Shown: piece after piece, positions 48,255 to 62,479 of the stretch
Numbering within the stretch: position 1 is the stretch's first letter
How the letters are laid out: the number at the start of each line of letters is the position of its first letter
DNA from: Sphingobacteriaceae bacterium
GTDB lineage: Bacteria > Bacteroidota > Bacteroidia > UBA7662
DNA length: 64,000 nt
NCBI GenBank assembly: GCA_030682795.1
Contig: JAUXNJ010000040.1
Span: 62,001-126,000 of the forward strand
Direction: 5' to 3'
Notes under the pieces: generated by a model
What the model was told of the DNA's origin: nothing
Seen by the model: the letters and a program-made list of their open reading frames with translations, nothing else
Database searches by the model: none
Made by a program: the position numbers and the translations under genes

Positions 48255-48286
48255 CTTGTCAGGAAGATGGCTGGGGTATGACTAAT
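48255..48286 (+). promoter_or_regulatory. Candidate ECF-sigma promoter of the DM13 gene
   Basis: CTTGTCAGGAAG (48255-48266), 14 bases, then ACTAAT (48281-48286), ending 16 bases before the ATG. It matches, less closely, the bipartite motif TTTGTCAGGATG-N14-ACCAAC found before two operons near the sigma factor at 54517-55083. Confidence 0.4.
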
Positions 48287-48302: not shown

Positions 48303-48731
48303 ATGAAACAAAAACTTGCCACACTGCTAATGATGAGTTTGTTATTAGCCTGCCAAAAATCTGAAGAGGTAATGCCACAACCTCAACCGCTTCCTACTAT
48401 TGGGGAAAGTTTTACATTGCTTAGTAGAACAAGCTTTTCTTCTCGCAATGGTTATACCGTTTCCGGAACGCTGGAAGTGTGGCGCGATAGTACGCAATAT
48501 GAATTTAGATTTATTGATTTCCAATCTTCCAACGGTCCGGATTTAGACATCCTCGTGGCCAACGGGACTTCCGCCAATCCTTCAATCCATTTGGGTGCTA
48601 TCCAAGGACTTCAAGGCAATTATGTGTACACTTATACCGATGTTGATAACCGCATCAAAGACTTTTCGAGCGTGGTAGTATGGTGCAGTAGATTTTCAGT
48701 GGCCTTTGGATTGGCCAGTTTTGAGCCTTAA
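48303..48731 (+). CDS. DM13-domain lipoprotein
   Basis: 142 residues. Lipobox MSLLLAC. The DM13 signature is complete: GYTVSGTLEVWRDSTQYEFRF then DFQSSNGPDLDILVAN, HLGAIQGLQGNYVYTYTDV and the single conserved Cys in VVVWCSRFSVAFGLA. DM13 is proposed to bind a cofactor through this Cys and take part in redox chemistry. The candidate ECF promoter upstream and the presence of thioredoxin/peroxiredoxin in the same putative regulon fit an oxidative-stress role, an inference. Confidence 0.88.
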   Translation: MKQKLATLLMMSLLLACQKSEEVMPQPQPLPTIGESFTLLSRTSFSSRNGYTVSGTLEVWRDSTQYEFRFIDFQSSNGPDLDILVANGTSANPSIHLGAIQGLQGNYVYTYTDVDNRIKDFSSVVVWCSRFSVAFGLASFEP

Positions 48732-53145: not shown

Positions 53146-53751
53146 TTACTCTGTTAGTTGTTCTAAAATCGCTGCCACACTACTTCGATGACGGTAGTCT
53201 TGGTCAAAATGGCGCCAAAGCACTACGCCTTCCCGACTAATTAAATAAGTAGCCGGTACAGGTAGTTGCTCACTATCGTCCCCAGAGGCGGTAGCCAAAC
53301 GCGCACGCAAGAGGGTATTGTATTTTTTGCGTGTTCCAGCCTCTGGTTGATGCGATACATCGAAGGCTTTACCGATTTTATGGCCTTCATCCCACAAAAA
53401 GGTAAAGCTGGCTTTTGTTTTTTCTTGCATCTGCAACAAAAATTCCGGCTTTTCAGGGGATATGGCGTATACACGAATACCCTTTGCTTCGAGCAGCTCC
53501 AAGCTGTCTTGCAAATTATTGAGGTGGCGATTGCAATAAGGGCACCATTGCCCGCGGTAAAAAACCAACAATACGGGTCCATCCGCTAATGCTTCGGTTA
53601 ATGAAACTTTGTCACCCAGCTGATTGAGCGCCGTAAAAGGCGTTACTTGCGATCCCACCGCCAAACCAGCGGTTTGTGATTCGGTTTTGTATTGCGCTTG
53701 CGTAAAAGTGCTTAAGCAAAGTAGCATTATAAATAGGAAGGATTTGGTCAT
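53146..53751 (-). CDS. AhpC/TSA-type peroxiredoxin-like protein, exported
   Basis: 201 residues with a signal peptide ending TFTQAQ. The thioredoxin fold has the redox motif RGQWCPYCNRHLNNLQ (Cys-x-x-Cys at the peroxidatic position), preceded by GDKVSLTEALADGPVLLVFY and followed by VYAISPEKPEFLLQMQEKTKASFTFLWDEGHKIGKAF. Such two-Cys AhpC/TSA relatives reduce peroxides or act as thiol-disulfide reductases in the periplasm. It overlaps the thioredoxin gene upstream by four bases, and so shares the candidate ECF promoter. Confidence 0.88.
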   Translation of the reverse strand: MTKSFLFIMLLCLSTFTQAQYKTESQTAGLAVGSQVTPFTALNQLGDKVSLTEALADGPVLLVFYRGQWCPYCNRHLNNLQDSLELLEAKGIRVYAISPEKPEFLLQMQEKTKASFTFLWDEGHKIGKAFDVSHQPEAGTRKKYNTLLRARLATASGDDSEQLPVPATYLISREGVVLWRHFDQDYRHRSSVAAILEQLTE

Positions 53752-54200
53752 TTTTGAATGGTTAGTGTTTTGGAAAGATTTAATAATTGCGAAGCGCTAA
53801 TGAAGCCTATGTGTTGTTTCGCAAGACTACCATCGGCTTGCACCCAATACAAACTCGGGTAGGCACGCAAGCCAAATTTTTGCACCAGGCCTGGACCTTC
53901 GCCTTTTTCGCCATCCACAGCAATGGCTATAAAGTGCTCTTTAAAGTACGCGCCCAGTTCGGGGTCACGAAAGGTAGTGGCTTTGAGCCGTTTGCAAGGA
54001 CCACACCAACTGGCATAAATGTCTACAAATAAGTGTTTGTTTTCTGCTTTCGCTTTTGCCAAGGCTTCCGCATAACTGCCTTCAAAAAACTGGATACCCA
54101 GCTCGTCGGGGGTATTGGCGTAATTTTTAGCTTCTAACGCACGCATGCCGAACCAGCCCAGCACAAATAAAGAGAGGAAGAGAATGGTTAATTTTTTCAT
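53748..54200 (-). CDS. Exported thioredoxin-family protein
   Basis: 150 residues with an N-terminal signal anchor (LTILFLSLFVLGWFGMRAL). The active-site stretch DIYASWCGPCKRLKATTF gives WCGPC; the cis-Pro region is GLRAYPSLYWVQ. It should reduce or exchange periplasmic disulfides. The start lies 15 bases after a candidate ECF promoter box on the minus strand, and the stop overlaps the peroxiredoxin start by four bases (ATGA). Confidence 0.9.
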   Translation of the reverse strand: MKKLTILFLSLFVLGWFGMRALEAKNYANTPDELGIQFFEGSYAEALAKAKAENKHLFVDIYASWCGPCKRLKATTFRDPELGAYFKEHFIAIAVDGEKGEGPGLVQKFGLRAYPSLYWVQADGSLAKQHIGFISASQLLNLSKTLTIQK

Positions 54201-54213
54201 AATGCATTTTGCT

Positions 54214-54249
54214 AAGTTGGTCTTTGCAAACTTGGCATCCTGACAAATT
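54214..54249 (-). promoter_or_regulatory. Candidate ECF-sigma promoter of the thioredoxin-peroxiredoxin operon
   Basis: Minus strand: TTTGTCAGGATG (54247-54236), 14 bases, ACCAAC (54221-54216) followed by TTA. It is identical in both boxes and in spacing to the site at 55130. The thioredoxin ATG lies 15 bases after the second box. Confidence 0.6.
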
Positions 54250-54520
54250 AATCTGCTTTTTCTGAGAGGCGGGCTTTTATTTTATTTCTGGAAGCCTCAT
54301 CTAATTTGTAAAGCAAGGGGGCGTCTGGTTTTTGCAGGGCTTTGTCGATGAGCAGACTTTGGTTTTCGTAGTATTTACAATACACACACATTTTTTGGTG
54401 CAGGTGAAGCTTGAGGTGTTCCCACCAGCCGAGGCCACGCAGTAGTTTGAGCTCGCTGAGCCGCGTGGATTCGCGGCATGAGATCATTAACCAACTCAAC
54501 ACAAAAGGGACTATTTTCAT
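54248..54520 (-). CDS. Zinc-type small anti-sigma factor
   Basis: 90 residues from ATG 54520; a longer frame to 54544 is less likely because the ATG overlaps the sigma-factor stop by four bases (ATGA). The segment LKLHLHQKMCVYCKYY has H-x3-C-x2-C, the zinc-binding anti-sigma pattern. No membrane helix is seen beyond the first ~15 residues (VPFVLSWLMIS), so it is probably soluble and senses the cytoplasm. It should bind and silence the sigma factor encoded upstream. Confidence 0.75.
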   Translation of the reverse strand: MKIVPFVLSWLMISCRESTRLSELKLLRGLGWWEHLKLHLHQKMCVYCKYYENQSLLIDKALQKPDAPLLYKLDEASRNKIKARLSEKAD

Positions 54521-55083
54521 TGAAACCAATTCGACTGCAGACATTGTTGCATGGCTAATTTAGCTCTGCGATTGATCTGCCAATAATTAGTCTGCGTGAG
54601 TTTGAGTTCCTGACAAAGTAATTGTGTTTCTTTCTCGAGTAAATATTTGCTTTCAAGTACCGATTTCCAGAGCAGCGGTAGTTTGTCGAGGCAAGCATAA
54701 AGCACCCTTAAAAATTCAGGTTGATCCAGCAAGGAGCCATGGGTATCGGGTACGTCGGTTTTGGGCGCGTTTTTCCAACTGCCGTCGGCATTAAAGTAAG
54801 TGTCCAAATCAGCTTCGCCCTCTAGCGCATCCTCTAAGTCTTTACGCTTGTATTTGGTTTTGTAGTAATCCATGATTTTATGACGCAAGATGCCAAAGAG
54901 CCAAGTCCGACCTTGACTGTCGCCTCTAAATTTATCAAAGCCCTTGATGGCAGCTTCAAAAGTATCTTGCACCAAATCAGCGGCAACGGCGGTGTCGTTT
55001 ACTTTTATACGCGCATAATTATAAAGGGCATCACCATGTGCTTCGAGTAAAGTTTGTAATTGTTGGCGTTTAGAAGGATTCAT
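54517..55083 (-). CDS. ECF RNA polymerase sigma factor
   Basis: 188 residues. Region 2: YNYARIKVNDTAVAADLVQDTFEAAIKGFDKFRGDSQGRTWLFGILRHKIMDYYK, with the DLVQDTF and WLFGILRH hallmarks of sigma-70 ECF proteins; region 4: LPLLWKSVLESKYLLEKETQLLCQELKLTQTNYWQINRRAKLAMQQC. The ATG start is decided by this N terminus, which has no upstream in-frame extension. It is coupled to the small anti-sigma gene by a four-base overlap, a common cis-encoded pair. A shared motif upstream of both neighbouring operons is its likely target. Confidence 0.94.
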   Translation of the reverse strand: MNPSKRQQLQTLLEAHGDALYNYARIKVNDTAVAADLVQDTFEAAIKGFDKFRGDSQGRTWLFGILRHKIMDYYKTKYKRKDLEDALEGEADLDTYFNADGSWKNAPKTDVPDTHGSLLDQPEFLRVLYACLDKLPLLWKSVLESKYLLEKETQLLCQELKLTQTNYWQINRRAKLAMQQCLQSNWFQ

Positions 55084-55126
55084 CGGCGCTAAAACTAAGG
55101 GATTTAGGAATGAAAAAAAAATCTGG

Positions 55127-55164
55127 AATTTTGTCAGGATGGGCAGCCAATTCCTACCAACCTA
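55127..55164 (+). promoter_or_regulatory. Candidate ECF-sigma promoter of the 55.2-kb operon
   Basis: TTTGTCAGGATG at 55130-55141, 14 bases, then ACCAAC at 55156-55161 and CTA. The first box is identical over 12 bases to the minus-strand site at 54236-54247, with the same 14-base spacer and ACCAAC box. The ATG of the first gene is at 55187, 25 bases after the second box. Confidence 0.6.
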
Positions 55165-55186: not shown

Positions 55187-55861
55187 ATGAAAAAGATTGT
55201 ATTGTTAGGCTTGGTCCTTGGTATGGCAGTCCCGGCTGCAAAGGCGCAAAACGTAAAGCCACACTGGGTAGCAAATGCTCAGTTATCCTTTGCACCTGCT
55301 GAATTCAGTGGTGCAGTGGGAATGGGGCGACAGCATCAGTTGGGCAAAAAAGACCGATTGCTGTTGGGGTATGGCTTGCGCTACAATGGATATCGAGGTA
55401 ACGGCATCGATTTTATTACTGCGCCTGCAGCACTCACCTTAGATGATAAACTCGATACTTTTACCATGGCCAGTGCCGCAACCCATGCTTTCAATGTTTA
55501 TTTGGCGTTAGGTTATCAAATTACTAGTAAATTGAGCTTTATGTTCGACATCGATTTAATAGGCGCCACTTTAGGTGCGGAGCGTTCTGGACTGTTCACT
55601 TCCACCGATCAACTGGGCTTTAATGGCAATTATCAAGCGACTCCAACAGCTTTAAATGCCTTGTTGGTGGGTGATAACGACCGCGGGACTTTGGGCTCCA
55701 ACTTCAGTATTCATTACCAATTAAAAGAGCAATGGGGCTTAAAACTCGGTATGGCTTATCTTTTTACAGAGTACACCACACAGCAAACATTGGCCTTTGC
55801 GAATGATCGTTTTCGTCGTAAAAGTGCGCAAGCCATGCTCGGAATTACATACAAATGGTAA
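55187..55861 (+). CDS. Small outer-membrane beta-barrel protein
   Basis: 224 residues with a signal peptide (IVLLGLVLGMAVPAAKAQ). Strand-rich: AGMGRQHQLGKKDRLLLGYGLRYNGYRG-like, HAFNVYLALGYQITSKLSFMFDIDLI and a C-terminal strand ending QAMLGITYKW with the terminal aromatic typical of outer-membrane proteins. It is the first gene of a five-gene overlapping operon, and its 3' end overlaps the YceI gene by seven bases. Confidence 0.7.
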   Translation: MKKIVLLGLVLGMAVPAAKAQNVKPHWVANAQLSFAPAEFSGAVGMGRQHQLGKKDRLLLGYGLRYNGYRGNGIDFITAPAALTLDDKLDTFTMASAATHAFNVYLALGYQITSKLSFMFDIDLIGATLGAERSGLFTSTDQLGFNGNYQATPTALNALLVGDNDRGTLGSNFSIHYQLKEQWGLKLGMAYLFTEYTTQQTLAFANDRFRRKSAQAMLGITYKW

Positions 55862-56382
55862 AGTTGTTTAAGATAGTAGTGTTTGCCATAGCGTTTTTGA
55901 GCGCTTCAAACACCCTGGCCCAGCAAAAAAACTGGACAGCCGTTAAAACCGACATCCGATTTTACATCCGAAATGCAGGCTTGGAAGTAGAAGGCAAATT
56001 TGACCAAGTGCAAGGTACTTTTGTGACCGATGAACGCAACCTCCCGGTTTTGGTAGTAGGTACTGCTAAAGTCAAAAGCATCGACACGGGCATAGGCCTG
56101 CGCGACAGTCATTTGCAAGGCAAGGATTATTTCAATGCCGCTGCCTTCCCAGAGCTACGCATGCAATTGCTTAGCGTAACTGAAAAGACCATCAAGTTCA
56201 ACGTTACCATCAAAGGCAAATCCAAAACCTATGAAATGCCGTATGTATGGAAGGTCGTGAAAGAGCAAGGGCAGTTTTCGGTGAGTTTTAAGCTCAACCG
56301 CCGTGATTTTGGAGTGGGTGGAAGCAGTCTGATGCTGAGCGACGATTTATTTGTTAAAATTGACCTGATGCTCCAACCATGA
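55855..56382 (+). CDS. YceI-family periplasmic lipid-binding protein
   Basis: 175 residues with an N-terminal signal (IVVFAIAFLSASNTLAQ). YceI features: IRFYIRNAGLEVEGKFDQVQGTFV, AKVKSIDTGIGLRDSHLQGKDYFNAAAFPELRM and the final strand FKLNRRDFGVGG. YceI proteins form a lipocalin-like barrel that binds isoprenoid lipids. The start overlaps the previous stop by seven bases and the next start overlaps this stop by four (ATGA). Confidence 0.93.
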   Translation: MVKLFKIVVFAIAFLSASNTLAQQKNWTAVKTDIRFYIRNAGLEVEGKFDQVQGTFVTDERNLPVLVVGTAKVKSIDTGIGLRDSHLQGKDYFNAAAFPELRMQLLSVTEKTIKFNVTIKGKSKTYEMPYVWKVVKEQGQFSVSFKLNRRDFGVGGSSLMLSDDLFVKIDLMLQP

Positions 56383-56882
56383 GTACCCTGATTCACCAAA
56401 CCCAGCAATGTTTCGAATTGTTGACGCAATTTTTGCAACAACTGCCAGAAGCCCGGTACCAACAGGCATATCCTCAGTTTTTCGGCGGTACCATAGGCAA
56501 ACATGTTCGTCACATTTTAGAGTTTTATCAGCAGCTTTTAGCGGCAGAAGCGGCTGAAAGTGTAAATTACGATGCCCGTGAGCGACAACTTGCGCTTGAA
56601 AATAAGCCGCAACAAGCCTTGGATGTAATCGACCAATTGTCGCGCTTACTCGCAGCACCGATACACGACCGCGCCTTAGCGGTTGAGGGCGCAGTGCTGG
56701 TGGACGTTGGGCCGGTTGGCAGCACTTTTCGCCGGGAATTGTACTATGCTTACGAGCATATGGTGCATCACATGGCGCTGATCAAAGTGGGGTGTTTTGG
56801 CTTGGAGGACTTTCAATTTCCTGAAACCTTTGGTTTGGCTTATGCCACTGCAAAACACCGCGAAGTAGCATGTGCACAGTGA
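56379..56882 (+). CDS. DinB-like four-helix bundle protein
   Basis: 167 residues, all helical. Conserved His residues at the expected places of DinB/YfiT metal-binding proteins: FGGTIGKHVRHILEFYQQLL near the start and YEHMVHHMALIK in the last helix. Members bind divalent metals and some act as thiol-transferases (bacillithiol or mycothiol) or DNA-damage proteins. Coupled to YceI by ATGA and to the NRDE gene by a 13-base overlap. Confidence 0.82.
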   Translation: MSTLIHQTQQCFELLTQFLQQLPEARYQQAYPQFFGGTIGKHVRHILEFYQQLLAAEAAESVNYDARERQLALENKPQQALDVIDQLSRLLAAPIHDRALAVEGAVLVDVGPVGSTFRRELYYAYEHMVHHMALIKVGCFGLEDFQFPETFGLAYATAKHREVACAQ

Positions 56883-57592
56883 GTTTTTTGCCGGTAACGA
56901 CGGCAGGGTTGGGCTTCATTTTCACTTCTAACCGCGATGAAACGTCGCTACGACCAGCCGCTCTGCCCTCCTGGCAAGTGTTGCCAGCCGGGAGATGGTT
57001 TGGCCCAAGCGACCCCCTTTCTAAGGGCAGTTGGTTTGGTACCGATGGTGAGCGCTGGGCTTTGTGCGTGCTCAATGGCGCCTTTGTGAAACACCAGCAT
57101 CAACCTCCTTACAGTCGCAGCAGGGGGCGGCTCATTCCAGATTTTTTGACCGCAGGAAGTACCGATAACTTTTTAAGCACCTATGATTTTGCCGGCATGG
57201 AGCCCTTTACTTTTTTGATTGTGCAGTTTGGTGAAAGTCCTTGCACCTTGCTTGAGTTGCGTTGGGATGCTCACCAATTGCACCAGCGCTATTTATCGGC
57301 AGATCAACCCCATCTTTGGTCCTCCGCCACCCTCTACAATGCCGAACAGGCGGCCATCAAAAAGCAGTGGTTTAATGTTTGGTTGGCGCAACAAGAAGGC
57401 GTTTTTACACAAGAGGCCATTTTTCGTTTCCACCAAGAAGCCGGCATAGGCGACCCTGGTCTTGATTTGGTGATGAACCGAGGAACTGTTCGTACTACCA
57501 GCATCAGTTCATTGGCACTGCAAAACAACACCTTACAGCTACGTTATTTACAAATCGACCCGCCGCAAGCCCATGCCTACTCCCTTTTTTGA
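56870..57592 (+). CDS. NRDE-family protein (TANGO2-like)
   Basis: 240 residues. Start MCTVSFLPVTTAGLGFIFTSNRDE contains the NRDE motif and the N-terminal Cys2; LPSWQVLPAGRWFGPSDPLSKGSWFGT and VLNGAF follow as in the TANGO2 family. The N-terminal Cys and its NTN-hydrolase-like setting suggest an amidohydrolase fold. The family has a heme-homeostasis role in eukaryotes; in bacteria it is unassigned. It overlaps both neighbours. Confidence 0.9.
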   Translation: MCTVSFLPVTTAGLGFIFTSNRDETSLRPAALPSWQVLPAGRWFGPSDPLSKGSWFGTDGERWALCVLNGAFVKHQHQPPYSRSRGRLIPDFLTAGSTDNFLSTYDFAGMEPFTFLIVQFGESPCTLLELRWDAHQLHQRYLSADQPHLWSSATLYNAEQAAIKKQWFNVWLAQQEGVFTQEAIFRFHQEAGIGDPGLDLVMNRGTVRTTSISSLALQNNTLQLRYLQIDPPQAHAYSLF

Positions 57593-58628
57593 TCGCCGGC
57601 GCAGTTACCAAACCAAGGCAGCTGAGTTTTGGCCCGCCTGGGTATTACAAGCAGCCTTGTACATGCAAGGCATTCCTTTGGGGTGGTGGCGTGGGGGACT
57701 CACTTGGTTTGCTCGGGTAAATCCGGGCATGGACTGGGGTGGCATGTTGGCGTATTCGAAGTCTGATGCCATGTTGTCTTTGCCCAAGGTCAATAAAGCA
57801 GCAGCATTCACTTTTGATTGGCCCATAGCGCAAGCCGTATTGCAGGAGCAACGACTAGCTGTTGGTTTGAGCTGGCCGTTGGTACTCAAGCCCGATCAGG
57901 GCGAGCGCGGTCGTGATGTATACCAACTCCACAATGAATTGCAGCTTTCAATCACCTTACAGCAGTTGCCACCTGGGAAATACCTGCTCCAAGAGTTTCT
58001 GGAATTGCCGTTTGAATTTGGTGTTTTTGTTTCCAAATCGCTTCGAAACCAGCAATTTGAAGTTTTATCGCTTAGCTGGAAGGTGCCGTTGGGGGTAATG
58101 GGTGATGGGGTCTCAACCATTGGGGAGTTACTCGCGCAACATCCCCGTGCCCGGCATTACCCAGCGCTGTTGGCAGCCCTATCGGCCGAGGTCAAAAACA
58201 CAGTACCTGCCGCAAACGTTTGGCGTCAGTTGCATTTTTCGGGCAACCACTGTCGCGGTGCTGCCTTTTTCGATGCCCAGGAGCTCATCGACCAGGCTTT
58301 AAACGACAGCATGCATCATGTTTTGAAGGAAATAGAGGGTTTTCGTTTTGGAAGATTGGATGTTTTGGTAGCCCAGCCGCAAGACCTTTGGCATCCCGAA
58401 GCTATTAAAGTGATTGAAATCAATGGCGCCAATGCGGAGCCAGCCCACATTTATGACCCCAAAATGCCCTTTTGGAGGATGTTGGCCGAGGTTTTGCGCT
58501 TCCAGCGTTTGATGTGGCACCAAGCCCGCTGGATGCAAAAGCAAGGTGCTTCGGCGCCACCGCTGCGCCAGCTTTGGCCTGTTTTGAAGGCGTACCGAAG
58601 TCAAATGCGTGCTGCAGCGGGAAGATGA
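57573..58628 (+). CDS. ATP-grasp-like protein of unknown substrate
   Basis: 351 residues. ATP-grasp elements: LVLKPDQGERGRDVYQLH (lid and lysine), YLLQEFLELPFEFGVFVSKS, RFGRLDVLVAQ and IKVIEINGANAEPAHIYDP, where Glu and Asn line up with the metal-binding carboxylate and Asn of carboxylate-amine ligases. A long N-terminal part (AFWPAWVLQAALYMQGIPLGWWRGG) is tryptophan-rich, possibly membrane-associated. No nearby peptide or amine substrate gene is seen. It overlaps the NRDE gene by 20 bases and closes the operon. Confidence 0.75.
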   Translation: MPTPFFDRRRSYQTKAAEFWPAWVLQAALYMQGIPLGWWRGGLTWFARVNPGMDWGGMLAYSKSDAMLSLPKVNKAAAFTFDWPIAQAVLQEQRLAVGLSWPLVLKPDQGERGRDVYQLHNELQLSITLQQLPPGKYLLQEFLELPFEFGVFVSKSLRNQQFEVLSLSWKVPLGVMGDGVSTIGELLAQHPRARHYPALLAALSAEVKNTVPAANVWRQLHFSGNHCRGAAFFDAQELIDQALNDSMHHVLKEIEGFRFGRLDVLVAQPQDLWHPEAIKVIEINGANAEPAHIYDPKMPFWRMLAEVLRFQRLMWHQARWMQKQGASAPPLRQLWPVLKAYRSQMRAAAGR

Positions 58629-61373: not shown

Positions 61374-62479
61374 AAGCACAGTTAGCCATCATTGGAGGAG
61401 GATTGGCAGGTTTATCGCTGGCCATTTTGGAGGCAAAGGCCGGCCAACAGGTGCTGCTGTTTGAGAAAAAGAGCTACCCAGCCCACAAAGTCTGCGGCGA
61501 ATACATCAGTCTTGAAAGCTGGCGTTTTTTAGAGGCCTTGGGTGTGCCCTTGGTGCAGTGGGACTTGCCCATCTTAAAGCGACTCCAACTCAGTTCACCA
61601 GCAAAAATGATTGATTTGGAGCTCGATTTAGGGGGATTTGGCGTAAGTCGCTATAAACTCGAAGCCGAAATGCTCCAGCTGACCAAGGCGGCAGGGGTGG
61701 AGGTGCATGCCGAATGTGAGGTGCGTGCGGTTAGCGCCCAAGCCAAGGGCTTTCTCCTTCAAACCGAAGCCGGGAATTTTGAAGTGGAGCGTGCCGCTGG
61801 CAGTTGGGGGAGGCGCTCGTTGCTCTACAAGCAGGCCCCGCAACCGCATAACTTTGTAGGCGTTAAATGGCATTTGAAGGGGGAGATGCCCAACGACCTC
61901 ATTGCCTTACATAATTTCGAAGGGGGGTATGCTGGGATGTCGCGCATTGAAGATGACTTAAGCTGTTTTTGTTACCTCGTGAGCAGCGAACGTTTAAAAA
62001 AAGCCGGTAGTATTCCTGCGCTGGAGCAAGCCATGCGTCGCGAAAATCCTTTCCTGGAGGCACGTTTGAACACCCTTGAGCCTGTATGGAACGAGCCCTT
62101 AACCATTTCGCAGGTCAGTTTTAGTCCAAAAGCCACCTCCCACCAAGGTGTTTTTTTATTAGGTGATGCCGCTGGCAGCATTGCACCCCTTGCAGGCAAT
62201 GGCATGAGCATGGCCCTGCATGCCGCCTATTTGCTGCACCTGCAGCTCGAAAAAGTGAGAAACGGTCAGCTCACCGAAAGTCAGTTGGTATCTGCCTACG
62301 ACCAGGCCTGGAAAAAGCAATTCAAGCTGCGAACGGCGGTGAGTTACCGCATACAGGGACTTTTTGGTCGCAATGCGCTTACCACACCTTTGCTGTACAG
62401 TGTAGGCGCTTTGCCCTTTTTAGGCAAGCAGCTCATGAAACTCACCCATGGACGCGATTTTATGCCGCTTCAAACATAA
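61370..62479 (+). CDS. FAD-dependent oxidoreductase (geranylgeranyl-reductase/monooxygenase type)
   Basis: 369 residues from ATG 61370 (MKAQLAIIGGGLAGLS), chosen because it overlaps the methyltransferase stop by ATGA; the frame is open further upstream only inside that gene. The GxGxxG dinucleotide motif (IIGGGLAGLSLAILEAKAGQQVLLFEK), the HKVCGEYIS loop after it and the FAD motif FLLGDAAGSIAPLAGNGMSMAL are typical of PHBH-like monooxygenases and geranylgeranyl reductases. It may hydroxylate a phenolic ring or reduce double bonds of the prenyl chain. Confidence 0.92.
   Translation: MKAQLAIIGGGLAGLSLAILEAKAGQQVLLFEKKSYPAHKVCGEYISLESWRFLEALGVPLVQWDLPILKRLQLSSPAKMIDLELDLGGFGVSRYKLEAEMLQLTKAAGVEVHAECEVRAVSAQAKGFLLQTEAGNFEVERAAGSWGRRSLLYKQAPQPHNFVGVKWHLKGEMPNDLIALHNFEGGYAGMSRIEDDLSCFCYLVSSERLKKAGSIPALEQAMRRENPFLEARLNTLEPVWNEPLTISQVSFSPKATSHQGVFLLGDAAGSIAPLAGNGMSMALHAAYLLHLQLEKVRNGQLTESQLVSAYDQAWKKQFKLRTAVSYRIQGLFGRNALTTPLLYSVGALPFLGKQLMKLTHGRDFMPLQT

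Follow-up and report, generated by a model that had tools for sequence, protein, structure and literature searches.

Introduction

Among the described systems, the closest to the locus reported here is that of Neisseria sigma-E, which is held by the ZAS anti-sigma factor NMB2145 and controls msrA/msrB and its own operon through a promoter with the -35 element GTMAGBWTT, a spacer of 12–13 and the -10 element CGTCTAAH (PMC2893595). Its relative in H. influenzae, RpoE2/HrsE, acts in the hypochlorite response and is designated "ECF group 13" (PMC7907618). Both share with our locus an ECF sigma factor beside a small cytoplasmic ZAS anti-sigma factor. The Neisseria promoter and spacer are nearly the same as the consensus of the Bacteroidota relatives, although the -10 elements of the sites studied here lack the CG found in that wider consensus. 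The sigma-E regulon is likewise very small, and methionine sulfoxide reductase and thiol genes are targeted in the Bacteroidota relatives, while the targets at our locus are thioredoxin, peroxiredoxin, YceI and DM13 instead of msrAB. The Neisseria operon is reported to be autoregulated as a whole (PMC2893595), unlike an anti-sigma promoter embedded in the sigma gene. Because of the near-identical promoter and the zinc HxxxCxxC anti-sigma factor, the system is, judged from sequence, the Bacteroidota version of the Neisseria sigma-E redox switch, the release of the sigma factor by an oxidant being inferred. The promoter type and the ZAS switch are already known from Neisseria sigma-E; what is new is that a copy of the promoter lies within a gene.

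For this intragenic copy, a parallel exists in C. glutamicum, where the SigH-dependent promoter PrshA drives the ZAS anti-sigma gene rshA alone, from a start 62–66 nt before rshA, and has been proposed to maintain a surplus of RshA, so that shut-down is fast (PMC3489674). As in our case, a sigma-type promoter lies between the sigma and anti-sigma starts; it serves the anti-sigma factor only, which at our locus is inferred from sequence alone. PrshA, however, has been reported in one species and belongs to a different promoter type, with no codon-level conservation described there, whereas the putative embedded promoter of Bacteroidota is conserved across the phylum and overlaps helix-turn-helix codons. 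In the open-access papers searched, PrshA was the only precedent found for a conserved intragenic anti-sigma promoter; subscription papers were not covered. The targets of SigR in S. coelicolor include thioredoxin. The anti-sigma factor RsrA of that species is a zinc-thiol protein that carries the C and HxxxCxxC residues (comparison in PMC2893595), and sigR is preceded by a SigR-dependent promoter (PMC3489674). The SigR/RsrA pair has the same anti-sigma type as our locus but a different promoter sequence.

Organization of the locus

The window, i.e., the whole stretch of DNA analyzed, comprises 64,000 nucleotides (positions 62,001 to 126,000 of the forward strand of contig JAUXNJ010000040.1) of the 3.14 Mb genome of Sphingobacteriaceae bacterium, assembly GCA_030682795.1. 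Its relevant features are as follows:

48255–48286 (+), one-mismatch motif copy 5' of the DM13 lipoprotein gene, 16 bases before ATG 48303
48303–48731 (+), DM13-domain lipoprotein (Pfam)
53146–53751 (-), AhpC/TSA-type peroxiredoxin (Pfam)
53748–54200 (-), thioredoxin-like protein (Pfam)
54216–54247 (-), putative promoter of the thioredoxin-peroxiredoxin operon; exact motif with -35 TTTGTCAGGA and -10 ACCAAC, 15 bases 5' of ATG 54200
54248–54520 (-), ZAS anti-sigma factor of the zinc type, C...HxxxCxxC (assigned from this motif and homologues)
54517–55083 (-), ECF sigma factor (scoring best against the curated family TIGR02943, but under its cut-off)
54586–54617 (-), putative intragenic promoter in the sigma CDS, in the codons of CQELKLTQTN (region 4.2); exact motif, proposed driver of the anti-sigma gene
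55130–55161 (+), putative promoter of the barrel-YceI-DinB-NRDE/TANGO2-ATP-grasp-like operon; exact motif, 25 bases 5' of ATG 55187
55187–55861 (+), barrel-like exported protein, gene 1 of the plus-strand operon ("barrel" being taken from the original prediction)
55855–56382 (+), YceI-domain protein (Pfam)
56379–56882 (+), DinB-like protein (weak Pfam match)
56870–57592 (+), NRDE/TANGO2-family protein (Pfam)
57573–58628 (+), ATP-grasp-like protein, last gene of the plus-strand operon ("ATP-grasp" likewise taken from the original prediction)

The products of 55187–55861 and 57573–58628 had no match in Pfam, NCBIfam or PHROGs. The sigma factor contains ECF regions 2 and 4 (Pfam Sigma70_r2, and a full-length match to sigma70-ECF TIGR02937), and its best-scoring NCBIfam family is TIGR02943, with 128.8 bits against a curated cut-off of 162.2 that none of the control genomes passes. 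In the anti-sigma factor, the zinc residues C23, H49, C53 and C56 are invariant among 8 homologues. Judged from homologue N-termini, its start is likely at 54520, where an ATGA joins it to the stop codon of the sigma gene, and not at 54544.

No orthologue of the sigma factor was found in the genomes searched from the same genus, family and order, so no close comparison was possible. The window sigma forms a very long branch in the tree, and because it is without close relatives its placement is unsure. The gene could have entered by horizontal transfer, or the relatives could have lost it.

Motif copies in the window and genome

The original prediction held that the sites at 54247–54216 (-) and 55130–55161 (+) are identical over 12 + 6 bases with 14 bases between them, and placed them 15 and 25 bases before start codons; all of this was confirmed. 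At up to 3 mismatches, TTTGTCAGGATG-N14-ACCAAC has 2 matches in the window against 0.08 expected, and none of 100 shuffles gave two. Exact matches of TTTGTCAGGA-N16-ACYAAY number three in the genome, where about 0.006 would be expected by simple base counting, so that with its spacing fixed it does not occur often at random sites. They are the two sites above and a third one, 54617–54586 (-), within the sigma gene, which had not been predicted. When the spacer was set one base too long, at 17 rather than 16, as a negative control, no exact match was found in the genome. Only two matches have one mismatch. One is the looser copy that had been reported before the DM13 gene, located here at 48255–48286, and the other (C26:135977) lies inside an argS-like CDS and was rejected as a regulon site, being probably due to chance. 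At up to 3 mismatches, the genome-wide total of 81 matches is not above the 103 of a reversed-letter control, which implies a very small regulon.

We interpret the motif as a promoter with -35 and -10 elements that is read by the neighbouring ECF sigma factor, itself held by the ZAS protein, with the embedded copy providing negative feedback through the anti-sigma gene; we give this interpretation a probability of about 0.83. It draws on the observed conservation of the sequence, its fixed spacing and its specificity across the genome, the constraint on synonymous positions, and the mutual exclusion of copies. According to this model, the zinc-thiol ZAS protein would hold the sigma factor until oxidation of the anti-sigma factor, an inferred step, frees it. 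The free sigma factor would then transcribe the thioredoxin-peroxiredoxin operon, the divergent barrel-YceI-DinB-NRDE-ATP-grasp operon and the DM13 gene, as well as the anti-sigma gene, the last via the copy in the sigma factor's own region 4.2 codons. Extra anti-sigma factor without extra sigma factor would amount to negative feedback, leaving the inhibitor in excess and shutting off the response. Such an arrangement would be a concrete answer to the problem of keeping an inhibitor ahead of its sigma factor without autoamplification. Sigma binding, the transcription start, the redox signal and the feedback are all inferred, as no transcription-start, binding or expression data were available.

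The copy within the sigma factor gene

The copy at 54617–54586 (-) stands 65 nt before the anti-sigma start. Sigma orthologues were identified in 75 of 395 genomes of the class, 80 further named loci were fetched, and the codon analysis was performed with 153 distinct sigma genes. The copy is conserved in 106 of these 153 orthologues, including members of Bacteroidales, Marinilabiliales, Flavobacteriales, Cytophagales, Saprospirales, Chitinophagales and Ignavibacteria, and it was absent from the six proteobacterial homologues examined. We infer, without transcription data, a conserved promoter that overlaps the codons of the sigma factor's helix-turn-helix across most Bacteroidota. If so, overlapping codes are seen here with a clarity unusual for bacteria: in several orders, a regulatory element has been kept within the codons of a conserved DNA-binding domain.

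It could be argued that only the flanking sites are sigma promoters and that the intragenic copy is a by-product of protein conservation, the codons of CQEL/CKEL...(S/T)N resembling the motif by chance. The residues are conserved, and the motif does follow the reading frame, but the choice among synonymous codons makes this explanation very unlikely. Over the 153 genes, region 4.2 reads TGT, followed by a Q codon that is CAG in 56 of 58 cases or a K codon that is AAG in 49 of 52, and then by GA, with an NCG codon, just before the -10, seven codons after the Cys. When the third bases of the whole gene were compared with local codon usage (708 tests), the top three were the wobble bases of the embedded motif (z of 16, 12 and 9), far beyond expectation: 103 G against 29.9, 109 G against 46.9, and 128 T against 75.8. 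The same three wobbles emerged from 72 loci obtained without any DNA pattern. With a PSSM built from intergenic sites only, which the wobble bias fits, the embedded site scored 21.0 on average and its synonymous recodings, in which the motif is lost, only 2.4; for the window sigma gene alone, the synonymous null gave p = 0.001. The class of 106 genes was defined by the internal score, but the per-column wobble test was not.

A weaker synonymous bias was observed at the codons of DLVQETF (alignment columns 41–47, 153 loci). An origin wholly in the DNA search pattern was rejected, since ascertainment accounts for only part of it. The bias is weaker yet persistent in the loci obtained without a DNA pattern, with z up to 5.4, and its cause is unexplained.

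The promoter reading of the embedded copy is also supported by genes in which the motif lies elsewhere. In 23 genes, the named ones belonging to Sphingobacteriales and a Chitinophaga, the motif is upstream of the sigma gene; in all of them the embedded copy is degraded and no synonymous bias is left, the residue being in most cases A, S or T, which speaks against a mere by-product of protein conservation. No gene carries both copies, 23 carrying only the upstream and 106 only the internal one. Three Chitinophagales loci have a copy at or just after the sigma stop, i.e., at the sigma/anti-sigma junction, and 21 genes have no copy in any of the three places. The embedded promoter thus appears to have been replaced by one upstream of the sigma gene in Sphingobacteriales, and by a junction promoter in a small Chitinophagales clade. 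The former is a natural control, in that the constraint on the codons has eased where the element was relocated. On the tree, the upstream arrangement arose about once or twice (some two changes) and the junction arrangement once. With so few changes, the Fisher p of the mutual exclusion overstates independence, and we rejected its reading as many independent events. In the Ferruginibacter locus L092:4836-5438, the junction promoter is followed by an apparent second ECF sigma gene, not by a ZAS anti-sigma gene.

A different function for the intragenic element, as a sigma-binding decoy or as the promoter of a small RNA derived from the sigma gene's 3' end instead of an anti-sigma mRNA, cannot be separated from an anti-sigma promoter by sequence alone. 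We nevertheless consider it very unlikely, because a ZAS anti-sigma gene follows the element in 105 of the 106 carriers at a steady distance (median 75 nt), one clade has its promoter moved to the sigma/anti-sigma junction, and a SigH-dependent promoter serves rshA alone in C. glutamicum (PMC3489674).

Covariation of the -35 base

The embedded -35 base is A where the residue is Lys and C where it is Gln. In 43 of 45 loci (p = 7e-11), the intergenic site has the same -35 base as the embedded one. The tree requires six changes for the embedded base and six for the intergenic one, and in an independent-pair test of the K/Q switch about 4 of 4 pairs changed in the same direction, too few for significance (p = 0.125). 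Either the embedded and the intergenic sites are both adapted to a single reader, or the K/Q residue itself helps to read the -35 base. We propose only tentatively that the promoter in the sigma factor's own helix-turn-helix codons constrains the protein: the residue would be almost exclusively K or Q because its codon must be [AC]AG. As a switch between K and Q shifts the embedded -35 in step with the regulon, sigma specificity, feedback promoter and regulon would co-evolve via one codon.

The motif and its targets in Bacteroidota

Near the sigma orthologues across Bacteroidota, the consensus is TTGT[CA]AGGWWT-N12-CG[AT]CTAA. At the single spacing TTGT[CA]AGG-N15-CG[AT]C[TC]A, 77 copies were found outside and 34 inside the sigma gene; six further copies are one base shorter, and there are none at other spacings from 10 to 21. 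In the 75 genomes that have the sigma factor, the strict motif gave 63 matches and its control 8; in the 320 genomes without it, the numbers were 16 and 34. Within the 395 class genomes it is concentrated in those bearing the sigma gene (28 of 75 against 14 of 320, p = 4e-13), although the relatedness of the genomes inflates such simple p values. Although no binding data exist to exclude that the motif is the operator of a separate regulator, near the sigma gene by chance, this is hardly credible for an element that tracks the sigma gene across genomes, matches the Neisseria sigma-E promoter and has -35/-10 geometry at 15–25 nt from the start codons that it precedes.

The sigma promoter reading also agrees with the targets. 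In many relatives, the motif is placed after the anti-sigma gene, as at 54216–54247, and the genes behind 131 copies belong mainly to the DUF1223, thioredoxin, redoxin, AhpC, DsbD, MsrA, MsrB, YHS and YceI families. Among the relatives there are 6 MsrA-domain and 6 MsrB-domain targets; no msr gene lies behind a copy with 0–1 mismatch in the genome studied here. The DM13 gene recurs behind the motif in Daejeonella (L108), and DinB genes do so in relatives. The motif therefore precedes redox genes beside orthologous sigma genes, and its original reading as a regulon element of redox genes is supported. Of the "redox or envelope-stress regulon" then suggested, the redox part stands, while thiol/methionine-oxidation stress is a more apt description than envelope stress, the signal itself being without data. 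Bacteroidota would thereby gain a redox sigma regulon that is well delimited and whose promoter can be tested.

In the set, no target is as common as the DUF1223 genes, most of which stand divergent from the sigma gene in Sphingobacteriales (L098, L104, L106, L112, L126 and others). Because this family of unknown function is the commonest target of the sigma promoter, a redox role is suggested for it. In three related genomes (L295, L296 and L298), a conserved distal site, TTGTAAGGAATATRTA...GCCGACTA, was observed before the gene of a 150-aa exported protein.
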